A stretch of DNA of 22,278 nt, taken from the NCBI GenBank assembly GCA_001803565.1, contig MHDQ01000205.1, positions 1 to 22,278 on the forward strand, in the 5' to 3' direction. Source of the DNA: Nitrospinae bacterium RIFCSPLOWO2_12_FULL_45_22. Lineage in GTDB: Bacteria; 2-12-FULL-45-22. Of this stretch, positions 9,953 through 14,526 are shown piece by piece. The translations under genes and the position numbers were made by a program. Numbering within the stretch: the stretch's first letter is position 1; each line of letters opens with the position of its first letter. The notes below the pieces were generated by a model, which was not told the origin of the DNA, ran no database searches, and saw only the letters and a list, made by a program, of their open reading frames with translations.

Positions 9953-9973
9953 CGCCCTTCGGGCGAGCTTTTT
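9953..9973 (+). terminator. Terminator-like hairpin, plus strand
   Basis: A five-pair all-GC stem (CGCCC/GGGCG) with loop TTC is followed by AGC and five T. It would work on the plus strand, although no plus-strand gene lies upstream, so it may only be a repeat or may block antisense reading toward the Hsp70-like gene. Confidence 0.35.
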
Positions 9974-10022
9974 AGACAGGATTAACAGGATTTACCAATT
10001 TTTCCCTGGAAAATACCTTCTT

Positions 10023-10049
10023 GTCAGGCTGGAAGCCTGACCTATTTTT
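10023..10049 (+). terminator. Second terminator-like hairpin, plus strand
   Basis: A perfect eight-pair stem, GTCAGGCT/AGCCTGAC, with loop GGA is followed by CTATTTTT. Same orientation as the hairpin 60 bases before it. It may equally be one of the palindromic repeats in this gap. Confidence 0.35.
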
Positions 10050-10379
10050 CATGTCCTTTGTAAGCCAATAGCTCATGAGCGCTTCCTCGTATTTATCCTG
10101 TTTCATCTGGTAAATCCTGTCAAAAAAGGAAATTGGTATGCGATTTACCTTCTTGGGATTGATACCCTGAAAAACCGCATTATTAAAATGGAAATTCCTA
10201 TGCAATTAAATTAGAAGCGAGATTTACTCGCTCTGGATTCAGGATAAAAATTTCACCCATTGAATTCGTCCTTAATTATAATATAAAATGTTCTAAAGTT
10301 TAAGAGATTGCTCTAACAAAATCTTGTTTTTTGCACGGAGAATATTTCTATTGGCTCAGGGTCCATGGAGTGAGGACTG

Positions 10380-10408: not shown

Positions 10409-10781
10409 AAAAATATCCCATATCCCGGAAACTATATGGACTACACAATAAAATACTAATTGCCTTATATGAAGCTCTGTTGGCAATATATTTAACTTTT
10501 CTCATGGACTACATAGGAAATACAGTTGCTTAATTATATCCCTTTATGTCAATAATATCAATGGGTTAAGCCAATTTTATGCATATTTTTTCCGGAAAGC
10601 GGGCTATATATCACGTTATTTAACCCCATAGGAGGTGAATAGCAGTTTCATTCAACAACTTCTCCTCCCCAATTATCTTTTCAGGAAAAAGCTTAATCGG
10701 TTCCTAATGCTTAAGGATCAAAGAAGAAAAAAAATCCACGGATTATAAAAATCTTTTAGTTGTATGGAGGCATTATGAATT

Positions 10782-13505
10782 ATGAGTAAGAAAGAGTTCT
10801 TTATAAATACTGTTCGTATGATTGATGTTGAAGGTAGCACAAACATACCTACCGTTCTATACTATAGGCCCAGGGCGTCGGTACTTATAGGCTCATCGGC
10901 ACTTGCAGAAGCCAAAAATCGCTACGAGATCAATGAAGATTTCAAGATTGATCTTGGCAATATTGATCCTAAATCCGAACCACCCAAAAAGTTTGATACA
11001 GCAACTGGAGAAAGGGTATCAGCGCGTAAACTAACCCACGATTTTCTTCACGAGGTACTTAAGTATGTTAGCGAATGGTTAGAAAATAATGACGTCGCTA
11101 AGGGTACCAGCATCTTACTGGCTGAACCATTAGTGATGCAAACTGAATTAGTGGGTCCGGATTGGTTATCAAACTACCGTCGAAATCTCGAACGTATCTT
11201 GGATGGAAAATTTGAAAAGATTGACTTTTTGCCGGAGCCATTTGCGGTATTCCAATACTACCGGTATGGGCTTAGACATCCTCTCGTAGCCGAGAGAACC
11301 AAACATTATGCCCTTGTTATGGACTTCGGGGGCGGTACATTTGACGTTTGCATAATAGAAACAACTAAGGAAGGAGATATCAGCCGAACCGGGAGTAATT
11401 CCAGGCCATTAGCAGCCTCGTCAGGGCCCATAGGAGGCTTTTATGTGAATCGGATGATCGCCCAGGAATTGTTTTGGAAATACCTGTTACCACAAAGCCG
11501 TAAGGACAAATTTAATAAAGGGCTAGAAGTCTACGGGAAGTGGCGCAAAGGCATAGACGACCTGTCCACGGCGGCTAACGAATACTGCAACTTCGTGAAT
11601 AATTTTCATGAGACTATTTACAGGGTTGAGAATCCAAAGCTTACTTTATGCAAGAGCATTGTAAACTGGGGAATCGAATCCTTACTAACCGTTAACGTCC
11701 CGATTGCCTTACCAGAAGACCCATTTTCTGCCACTGGCAAATTCATCAATGTGCAGTTTTCAGGGAGTGAACTTCGCAACATATTTGTTAGTAAGGTGTG
11801 GGAACCACGCCTCAAACATATTATTCGCCAAGCACTTCAACGTGGCAAAGAAGAACTTTGTGGTGCACCAATTTCAGTCGTACTCCTCTCTGGAGGATCA
11901 GCCAATATTGGCTGGCTTAGAGAACTTTTACAGCGCGATTTTGCAGGTGAATTGGGCGATGCCGAAATATTGCGCTTACCCGATTTTCAAGAAGTCGTTA
12001 CCAAGGGTTTGGCAGTAGAGTGTGCTAGGAGGTTTCATAATCAAGGGGGGGACTTTTCCTCGGTCACCTATAATCGACTTTGCCTTATTCTGGATGCCGA
12101 CCGCTCGGTTTATCAGCCTCAGTGCTTTAGAGCTAGAGTGGAAGGTCTGCCTAACGTGACCGATATGCCCGGTGTTTTACTCCCCTCTGCGAGTATCCTG
12201 CGAAGTTTTATTGATAAACCAATGAGGTGGCGAGTTAAGCTGGATCATCCACCCCGTCAGCAACTAGATTACTATTTCCTTCGGTCTAGCTTTGACCCGA
12301 ATGATCATGAAAACCTGCAAAATATAGAGGAGCACATAGTCTACACCCCACTTAACTGTCCCTTCGATGCAGCTTTGCAAGTGGAACTTATCGTCAAACA
12401 TGACGGCACTGCTATGCCGACATTCATATACAAGAGCGGACGTACTGAAGCAGAAACCATCGCACTTAAAGGCAAGCCGTTCTATCTCGATATGACATAC
12501 ACCCAGACAGCAGCAACCTCTAAGGCATACATTGGCCTAGATTTCGGCACTAGCAACACATCAATCTCATTCGTTGATGAATCGTCCATCCAGATTTACC
12601 GAAAACGGGCAGTGGAAAAGTCATGGAAGGAACTGAGTGATCTTGTTTCCACTCTCCCCTACCCTTTAGCTGTACCATTGGCCCTGTACCTAAGTCAGGT
12701 TGATCAGGCCAAGCTTGTAAAACAGGCCTTCGAATTCATCGAGGCTGCACTTACAATGGCCGCTTACGTGGCATATTTGGATTTTTGTTTAAATAAAACA
12801 GAGGGCGAATCAAGACTTTTTAAGGGTTTCACACAGAGGTCAGCCGGGCCACTATGGGCCTTAATCAATGACTGTCTTAGTAAGTTGGGAAATAATGCTG
12901 TCATCTCTTGCCCTTTTCAAGAACTCTTGAACCCTGAATTTCACCAACCGCTCAATGATGCTGTAACTTTCTTTGCATCGTATAAGCACGGCAAGGTCAG
13001 AGAAACCGAATTAGACATTCTCAGAGTAGTGCAAATATTAGCAAACATCAGCCAAAAAGTATTTGCGACCCATGTCTTCGGATTTTTTGAGAACGTCTCC
13101 AAACAGAGATTCGGGAGCGAGCATCACGGTATATTTCGGCATGCATGTGGCCCTCCTCCGTTCTTCAAATTCTCCCAATATCGAGGCCCTTATACGTTCT
13201 CAGAGGACGAGCCATTTTTGCTGAATTTGGACAAGTGCACTGCTTTGCCTCTTCAGCCTTTGATCTTTTGGGACCGTTGCAATAAACATCCTGATGTTGA
13301 TATTGGTCATTGCTACCTCTTCGATATACCAGAAAAAGGCAAAGGCCAATACTCGTTTAAGGCAGTTGGGTATCCGTGCAGTTGCCAGGTTTCGGTTACA
13401 AACCAATATCGCGCTTTAGCAGAGAAGCTAGAAGAGTATAGAGAGCGCGACTCAAAGGCCACACTTTTGCAAGTAGGTTCCGTTGAAGATATCCTAGGAG
13501 GATGA
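10782..13505 (+). CDS. Hsp70-type ATPase with displaced phosphate-1 motif and HEPN-like C-terminus
   Basis: A 907-residue protein not tied to a named family. Residues about 8-417 follow the Hsp70/DnaK ATPase fold: IPTVLYY plus VLIGSSALAEA (22-43), FLPEPFAVFQYYRYG (149-163), phosphate-2 VMDFGGGTFDVCIIE (179-193), SGPIGG (214-219), the adenosine motif VVLLSGGSANIGWLREL (366-382) and EVVTKGLAVECA (404-415). The N-terminal phosphate-1 motif is absent, and the frame is closed by TGA at 10776-10778, so it cannot be hidden upstream. Instead IGLDFGTSNTSISFVD occurs at 584-599, after a beta-rich stretch (about 425-575) that may be a substrate-binding-like domain. Residues 620-770 (LPYPLAVPLALYL, EFIEAALTMAAYVAYLDFC, FFASYKHGK) are helical and recall HEPN-like domains, with the RNxxxHG motif reduced to YKHG. 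The ATG follows GGAGG by 11 bases. No signal peptide or membrane segment. Confidence 0.82.
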   Translation: MSKKEFFINTVRMIDVEGSTNIPTVLYYRPRASVLIGSSALAEAKNRYEINEDFKIDLGNIDPKSEPPKKFDTATGERVSARKLTHDFLHEVLKYVSEWLENNDVAKGTSILLAEPLVMQTELVGPDWLSNYRRNLERILDGKFEKIDFLPEPFAVFQYYRYGLRHPLVAERTKHYALVMDFGGGTFDVCIIETTKEGDISRTGSNSRPLAASSGPIGGFYVNRMIAQELFWKYLLPQSRKDKFNKGLEVYGKWRKGIDDLSTAANEYCNFVNNFHETIYRVENPKLTLCKSIVNWGIESLLTVNVPIALPEDPFSATGKFINVQFSGSELRNIFVSKVWEPRLKHIIRQALQRGKEELCGAPISVVLLSGGSANIGWLRELLQRDFAGELGDAEILRLPDFQEVVTKGLAVECARRFHNQGGDFSSVTYNRLCLILDADRSVYQPQCFRARVEGLPNVTDMPGVLLPSASILRSFIDKPMRWRVKLDHPPRQQLDYYFLRSSFDPNDHENLQNIEEHIVYTPLNCPFDAALQVELIVKHDGTAMPTFIYKSGRTEAETIALKGKPFYLDMTYTQTAATSKAYIGLDFGTSNTSISFVDESSIQIYRKRAVEKSWKELSDLVSTLPYPLAVPLALYLSQVDQAKLVKQAFEFIEAALTMAAYVAYLDFCLNKTEGESRLFKGFTQRSAGPLWALINDCLSKLGNNAVISCPFQELLNPEFHQPLNDAVTFFASYKHGKVRETELDILRVVQILANISQKVFATHVFGFFENVSKQRFGSEHHGIFRHACGPPPFFKFSQYRGPYTFSEDEPFLLNLDKCTALPLQPLIFWDRCNKHPDVDIGHCYLFDIPEKGKGQYSFKAVGYPCSCQVSVTNQYRALAEKLEEYRERDSKATLLQVGSVEDILGG

Positions 13506-13623: not shown

Positions 13624-13926
13624 ATGAAGATAGTTAAATCAAAAAACGGCATACCTATCCGATTATCGGAAGAGAGATGGATTCATATTACTGAAGAGCA
13701 TTCAGAAATGGCCGGTTATTATTTTGAGGTTCTTGAAACCGTTCAAGAACCAGAGGCACTTTATGAAGGCGAGGCCGAAGAGTTGCTTGCACTCAAAGAA
13801 ATTGAGTCCGGGAAATATTTGATTGTCGTGTACAAAGAGGTGAACAAAGAGGATGGATTTATCATTACAGCTTTCTTGACCAGGAGGATTAAGCAAATCG
13901 AAAGGAGGATAAAGCTATGGCCTTGA
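13624..13926 (+). CDS. Small PBECR/BECR-like protein, possible toxin
   Basis: A 100-residue basic protein. The opening KSKNGIPIRLSEERWIHITEEHSEMAGYY, the middle VLETVQEPEALYEGEAEELLALKE and the closing YLIVVYKEVNKEDGFIITAFLTRR follow a pattern I associate with small PBECR/DUF4258-like proteins of the BECR (barnase-EndoU-colicin-RelE) RNase fold. Conserved candidates are R17, H21, E24 and H25 in the ERWIHITEEH segment and the TRR near residues 86-88. RNase activity is inferred, not shown. ATG with GAGG seven bases upstream, inside a hairpin. Its end overlaps the next gene by ten bases, so the two are co-translated, which suits a toxin-antitoxin pair with a DUF2283 partner. Confidence 0.68.
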   Translation: MKIVKSKNGIPIRLSEERWIHITEEHSEMAGYYFEVLETVQEPEALYEGEAEELLALKEIESGKYLIVVYKEVNKEDGFIITAFLTRRIKQIERRIKLWP

Positions 13927-14156
13927 TAAATGTGAAAGATATCCTCAACCTTACTCCCCAATTGTTAAGTATACCTTTTAATCGCATCTGGTATAGTTAT
14001 GATGAGGAGGCAGATGTCCTGTATTTAAACTTTAAAAAGCCCAGCCATGCTGATGATAGCGAGCTCACTGATGACGATATTATCATCAGATATGAGGAGG
14101 GGGAAGTGATAGGCATTACGGTCCTTCATGCGAGTAAAAGAAAAGAGGCAATATAA
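13917..14156 (+). CDS. DUF2283 family protein, possible antitoxin
   Basis: A 79-residue acidic protein. The segment IWYSYDEEADVLYLNFKKP, then DDDIIIRYEEGEVIGITVLHASKR, is the standard DUF2283 pattern (YDxxADxLYI... then a short acidic turn and a V-IGI-IL-AS end). DUF2283 genes are often found beside small BECR-like or DUF4258 genes; that association is from memory and the partnership here is inferred. The first 20 residues (MALINVKDILNLTPQLLSIP) are extra and hydrophobic, and could contact the partner. The start is ATG at 13917-13919 with AAGGAGG eight bases before it, inside the last codons of the upstream gene, so the antitoxin candidate has a stronger ribosome site than the toxin candidate. 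No hairpin terminator follows. Confidence 0.75.
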   Translation: MALINVKDILNLTPQLLSIPFNRIWYSYDEEADVLYLNFKKPSHADDSELTDDDIIIRYEEGEVIGITVLHASKRKEAI

Positions 14157-14246: not shown

Positions 14247-14526
14247 ATGGCCGTGCTAGGTGGGGAGGTAGCGGTGCCCTGTAACCCGTAATCCGCTATA
14301 ACGGGACTGAATCCCCTTTTCAGCGGCTCGGCTTCTTTCAGGGTCGGGTCTCTGGGTAAGTGGTGTTGACAACTGGGTCTTGTACAATAAGGACTTGCGA
14401 ACCCCGTCAGGTCCGGGAGGAAGCAGCGGTAAGCAGGCACCCTTAGTTGCTGCAAGGGAGCCTGGTTCGAGCTAACTGCTCAGGAAGCGCCTGGGAGAGA
14501 GAGTCAATGAGGGGTGCACGGCCTTT
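14247..14526 (+). ncRNA. ffs: Signal recognition particle RNA, long Alu-domain type
   Basis: Scaffold of the signal recognition particle, which binds Ffh and brings membrane-protein ribosomes to the translocon. The GTCAGGTCCGGGAGGAAGC block at 14406-14424 is the Ffh-binding helix 8; its tetraloop is GGGA where GGAA is usual, still a GNRA loop. The 5' half, GCCGTGCTAGG then GGGGAGGTAGCGGTGCCCTGT (about 14250-14282), is the Alu domain, and GTAAGTGGTGTTGAC (about 14356-14370) is also as in Bacillus. The ends pair: GGCCGTGC (14249-14256) with GCACGGCC (14516-14523), followed by TTTCTT, so the closing helix may double as terminator. The ends are approximate. It sits directly before dnaX, as in Bacillus subtilis. 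Confidence 0.95.

Follow-up and report, generated by a model that had tools for sequence, protein, structure and literature searches.

The 907-residue protein encoded at positions 10782–13505 (+ strand) of the window, the whole 22,278-nucleotide stretch of Nitrospinae DNA analysed here, is very probably a natural circular permutant of the Hsp70-type unit of nucleotide-binding domain (NBD) and substrate-binding domain (SBD), with the break in its chain falling between lobe I strands 2 and 3. Circular permutation had been put forward in the initial annotation of this sequence and is the best reading, since sequence profiles, the predicted fold, and the dependence of a relocated hairpin on the Hsp70 part all agree on it, as does the evidence from homologues. 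Allostery in Hsp70 proteins is thought to pass from the phosphate loops via the inter-domain linker to the SBD. In this protein, lobe I would be cut at the turn between strands 2 and 3, and an SBD-like domain would be wired directly into the phosphate-1 strand. The protein would thus be a natural experiment on which connections the Hsp70 engine needs, with catalytic residues kept across phyla. It also points to an unstudied gene that often lies just upstream of BREX, DISARM and restriction-modification (R-M) genes.

Motif order and catalytic residues

The open frame is preceded by GGAGG at 10766–10770, a likely ribosome-binding site for the ATG at 10782, and is closed upstream by an in-frame TGA at 10776–10778. 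Its composition (GC 44.8, GC3 44.1) is like that of its neighbours. Neither PADLOC nor PHROGs put a name on the protein; PHROGs returned only weak matches to partition proteins, around the phosphate-2 motif. The frame begins at strand 3 of the Hsp70 NBD, and the motifs then follow on the + strand in the order, and at the places, first read from the translation. They are the EPFAVFQYYRYG motif (residues 152–163, read in the translation); phosphate-2, VMDFGGGTFD (residues 179–188; 11316–11345), and the adenosine motif, LLSGGSANI (residues 368–376; 11883–11909), both placed by sequence and homologue alignment; connect-2 (QEVVTKGLAVECAR at residues 403–416), which with the last NBD helix occupies residues 403–417 (11988–12032) in the AlphaFold model and alignment; and only then phosphate-1, IGLDFGTSNTSIS, at residues 584–596. 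The phosphate-1 motif sits in a relocated strand 1–phosphate-1–strand 2 hairpin (residues 582–599; 12525–12578), placed by motif, model and prefix tests.

No phosphate-1 motif occurs before residue 584 in the window protein, as the initial annotation had it, or in the homologues. Taken alone, the missing N-terminal motif would suit a truncated or misassembled gene from which phosphate-1 had been lost. However, full-length homologues start at about the same residue, none of them with an N-terminal motif, and a stop codon and ribosome site lie just upstream of the ATG, which together leave truncation a negligible chance. The same stop had been taken in the initial annotation to rule out a simple start-site error. 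In every copy covering both regions, phosphate-2 is found around residue 180 and phosphate-1 around residue 590; the phosphate-1 motif and its position are kept in every homologue that extends that far, and so are not due to chance. Ordinary Hsp70s from other genomes, collected as matches to the family profile, have phosphate-1 before phosphate-2 wherever the pattern found both. Two open frames without a phosphate-1 match, L084 and L074, were set aside as Hsp70s of ordinary order with long N-termini (SIDVGATN / SIDLGATN). They are Desulfobacterota proteins of about 900 residues, in which a long N-terminus resembling helical repeats stands ahead of the ordinary-order Hsp70.

The residues expected at an Hsp70 active site are present in permuted order: D10, T13, K71, E175, D199, T204 and D206 of Hsp70 correspond to D587, T590, K55, E152, D181, T186 and D188. 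K55 (10944–10946, + strand), the equivalent of Hsc70 K71, is invariant and aligns to the SIKR of DnaK; E152 (11235–11237, + strand), the equivalent of Hsc70 E175, is likewise invariant, its equivalence being assigned by motif (PEP vs NEP). Around phosphate-1, the homologue alignment shows Y583, G585, D587, F588, G589, T590 and S591 to be invariant. The catalytic residues are thus kept on both sides of the permutation cut, with the single exception of T186S in one homologue, as expected for one joint ATP site.

The resemblance to DnaK and Hsc70 (PF00012) extends over the NBD fold, the phosphate-1, phosphate-2, adenosine and connect-2 motifs, the equivalents of the catalytic residues, and a beta domain after the NBD. 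There are also differences: phosphate-1 opens the NBD in DnaK and Hsc70, whereas here the strand 1–phosphate-1–strand 2 piece follows the beta domain; there is no recognisable alpha lid, the C-terminus carries a module comprising a HEPN-like and a beta domain; and identity in structural alignments is only 13–20%. No precedent for a naturally permuted Hsp70 NBD, or for a permuted actin fold, was found in the literature searched, which lay mostly outside subscription journals.

Profile and structural evidence for the permutation

Whole-rotation scanning with local HMM scoring was uninformative on permutation, because local alignments are insensitive to the position of far ends; prefix tests were used in its place. 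Built from residues 1–424, a profile matched positions 29–351 of the 353 in the Hsp70 NBD (hhalign score 149.4, E 5e-20). When the 22-residue hairpin segment was moved to the front, the match lengthened to 3–351 and the score rose to 185.8 (E 5e-25), while 100 random 22-residue prefixes drawn from the same proteins scored at most 153.2. Single sequences scored against an HMM built from Hsp70 proteins gained 6 to 17 bits from the hairpin in front in all nine cases; the few random prefixes that scored in this test had probably drawn the hairpin itself. The Pfam HSP70 model behaved alike, the same move raising the window NBD from 18.8 to 21.5 bits and two homologues from 28.8 to 36.9 and from 25.9 to 32.7. 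In its natural order, the window protein reached 17.0 against PF00012 (gathering score 20.6), with L008 (28.8) and L014 (25.9) above the gathering score.

Structure prediction, proposed at the outset as a check, gave a consistent picture. The AlphaFold model of the full protein has a pLDDT of 78 and a pTM of only 0.52, from an alignment of nine sequences. Its residues 7–422 (10800–12047, + strand) comprise an Hsp70-type NBD, strand 3 through to its final helix (hhalign probability 99.3%), and align with Hsp70 NBDs from their residue 20–24 on (VIA-align Z about 25, rmsd about 4 over 334 residues); only strands 1–2, the first 20 or so residues, are missing from the fold. The hairpin has a pLDDT of 81–83 in this model. 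When residues 575–907 were folded alone, it fell to 42–48 while most of the C-terminal module reached values above 90; because that run removed the NBD and the beta domain together, the hairpin can be said to need the Hsp70 part, but not lobe I alone. The hairpin thus does not model as belonging to a separate domain, the outcome that the initial annotation had named as counting against a permutation. It is predicted to fold back into lobe I and complete the ATP site.

The sequence data fit equally well with a domain swap: one molecule would lend its phosphate-1 hairpin to the NBD of a partner, and an ATP site would exist only in a dimer or filament. The linkers flanking the hairpin are weakly predicted (residues 572–579 and 605–613 fall below pLDDT 50), which would suit such an exchange; the single-chain run, however, was already confident on the hairpin, which is less expected if only a partner hosts it, and we consider the swap unlikely. 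For the preferred reading, folding back within one chain, the reconstructed order is as follows: the old N-terminal piece (strand 1, phosphate-1, strand 2) would now come after the old C-terminal end, to which it is joined via the SBD-beta-like domain, and the HEPN-like and beta module would come after the hairpin. D587 and T590 would form a joint ATP site with K55, E152, D181, T186 and D188, in which ATP would be bound and hydrolysed. Past the hairpin, a short additional strand (12588–12599; residues 603–606 of SIQIY) resembles a second strand 3, and may be left over from a tandem duplication that gave rise to the permutation.

The beta domain and the C-terminal module

Residues 434–578 (12081–12515, + strand) form a beta domain at the place of the Hsp70 SBD-beta. 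Structure alignments reach residues 568–574 in DnaK chains with an SBD, covering 430–434 residues as compared to 334 in an NBD-only chain. The initial annotation had described a substrate-binding-like domain as inserted into the permuted NBD; the fold comparison sustains this, but no SBD similarity was detected by sequence profile, and with the profiles silent the evidence that this predicted domain is SBD-like is moderate.

A helical domain (residues 612–764; 12615–13073) and a beta domain (residues 765–903; 13074–13490), both on the + strand, make up the C-terminal module; the first was assigned by fold comparison and alignment, the second from AlphaFold models. The helical domain was best matched in fold by Roquin, in its ROQ region (Z 11.5 over 130 residues; ROQ chains Z 10.7–11.5), followed by unrelated rows at Z 8.8 and the HEPN protein 4nqf at Z 6.2; Foldseek gave no significant match for the module, all E-values being weak. 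In Roquin, the helical portion is a HEPN domain. Within the helical domain of the window protein, H736 is invariant in the homologue alignment, and no arginine occurs at positions −5 to −7 from it. The domain resembles the HEPN superfamily (PMC3710099) and Roquin ROQ in these tentative fold matches and in the conserved histidine; HEPN RNases carry the RX4-6H motif, of which the arginine is missing here. It is therefore probably not a HEPN RNase, and a part that binds RNA or protein is the more likely role.

The nature of this module also bears on the alternative raised in the initial annotation, that the IGLDFGTSN motif starts a second, degenerate actin-like domain. The motif does resemble the beginning of any actin-fold domain. 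Against this, residues 600–907 are confidently modelled as a bundle of helices and then a beta domain, with no actin-type alpha/beta fold; the best fold match of the module is Roquin ROQ and not actin or Hsp70; no homologue has a second phosphate-2 motif; and the first NBD would be left without strands 1–2. We therefore rejected a second actin-like domain as highly improbable.

Relatives, genomic neighbourhoods and possible role

Searches with tblastn found a full-length relative on plasmid records of Bradyrhizobium barranii (two records, both strain 323S2; 41% identity over residues 1–862) and a broken copy on pUSDA123-1 of B. japonicum USDA 123 (L006, 9950–11400). A contig scan with a single sequence as query gave no match; with a two-row alignment as query it added nine loci. 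These were in a Terriglobia metagenome-assembled genome (MAG; 58%), Geomonas oryzae (49%), two more Acidobacteriota, Aureimonas, Sphingopyxis, Mesorhizobium, Sphingomonas and Bradyrhizobium BTAi1. Whole-genome searches added two copies: G774, the one further copy among 384 genomes from the class to which BTAi1 belongs, and G1460, the one further copy among 394 from the Geomonas phylum. No further full-length copy was found among 385 relatives of the genome that holds the window or in 395 genomes of the phylum of L009, and viral contigs and phages yielded no relative. This brings the count to 13 loci including the window, or 14 with the broken USDA 123 copy; L011, L012 and L014 have frame breaks or stops. 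All homologues are in permuted order and none carries a normal N-terminal phosphate-1, the homologue search thus bearing out the initial annotation. Since 12 loci besides the window, from Acidobacteriota, Desulfobacterota and Alphaproteobacteria, retain both this order and the catalytic residues, we regard this as a real family and not a broken gene. In a 12-member tree, the window sequence groups with those of Acidobacteriota and Geomonas (100/99), apart from the alphaproteobacterial members.

Defence genes adjoin six of the 14 loci, one of these being the broken copy, and in all six the gene lies just upstream of, and on the same strand as, a defence gene. In G774 it directly precedes brxA and brxB. 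In G1460 a type III methyltransferase lies only 6 bases away and belongs to a run of genes that also holds a type III nuclease, DUF2130, HARE-HTH, GmrSD and a DrmD-like helicase. On the B. barranii plasmid its stop codon overlaps the start of a DrmD-like fragment, followed by ZacABC; in USDA 123 the broken copy stands ahead of an annotated drmD and an N-6 methylase. In the Terriglobia MAG it precedes an SspF-like gene, and in Mesorhizobium a DUF262 gene and a cytosine methyltransferase. In a control with ten other genes, PADLOC matched only two, which were read as ClpB and RpoD; single matches are therefore weak evidence, but the multi-gene defence sets near the relatives are not easily explained as false matches.

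A precedent for an Hsp70-like protein in restriction loci is CnuD, an Hsp70-like NBD/SBD protein of type III CoCoNuT restriction systems that is found with BREX and R-M systems and has been proposed to bind RNA (PMC11090510). Compared by description, the two share an Hsp70-like NBD/SBD in phage-restriction loci and RNA-related partner domains. CnuD, however, is partnered by McrB-like GTPases, has HEAT-like repeats, and has partly degenerate ATP motifs, whereas those of the permuted protein are conserved, and its description mentions no permutation (PMC11090510). No McrB-like GTPase gene was found among the scanned neighbours or among the window's open frames.

From these contexts, we infer that the protein is reasonably likely to be a defence-associated, ATP-switched sensor or regulator. 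The phosphate-1 hairpin physically links the SBD-like domain to the HEPN-like module, and the nucleotide state should therefore move both. The two parts would be coupled through the hairpin, and target binding, by either part, and ATP state would control each other. More specifically, it would be a conserved defence protein based on a natural circular permutant of Hsp70; the hairpin would itself act as the mechanical joint, and ATP state would gate an immune sensor. This proposal has in our view an even chance of being right. A smaller but appreciable chance goes to a correct permutation in a solitary chaperone or stress protein with no tie to defence. The window gene does stand alone, between secA and SRP RNA/dnaX, and eight of the 14 loci, the window among them, have no recognised adjacent defence gene; the rare and patchy distribution is nevertheless unlike that of a housekeeping gene, and the consistent placement in the six defence contexts also speaks against a solitary role.

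Three other features of the window lie near the gene. Directly downstream, at 13624–14156, a PBECR2-like nuclease gene, whose score only just exceeds the Pfam cut-off, overlaps a DUF2283 gene, the two forming a toxin-antitoxin-like pair. A bacterial large SRP RNA follows at 14251–14521 (196.9 bits); as it extends past the mechanically assigned GTG start of the dnaX open frame at 14514, the true start of dnaX is probably further downstream. Upstream, the AT-rich gap ahead of the permuted gene contains an imperfect inverted repeat at 9968–10128, with TTAACAGGATTTACCA / TGGTAAATCCTGTCAA.
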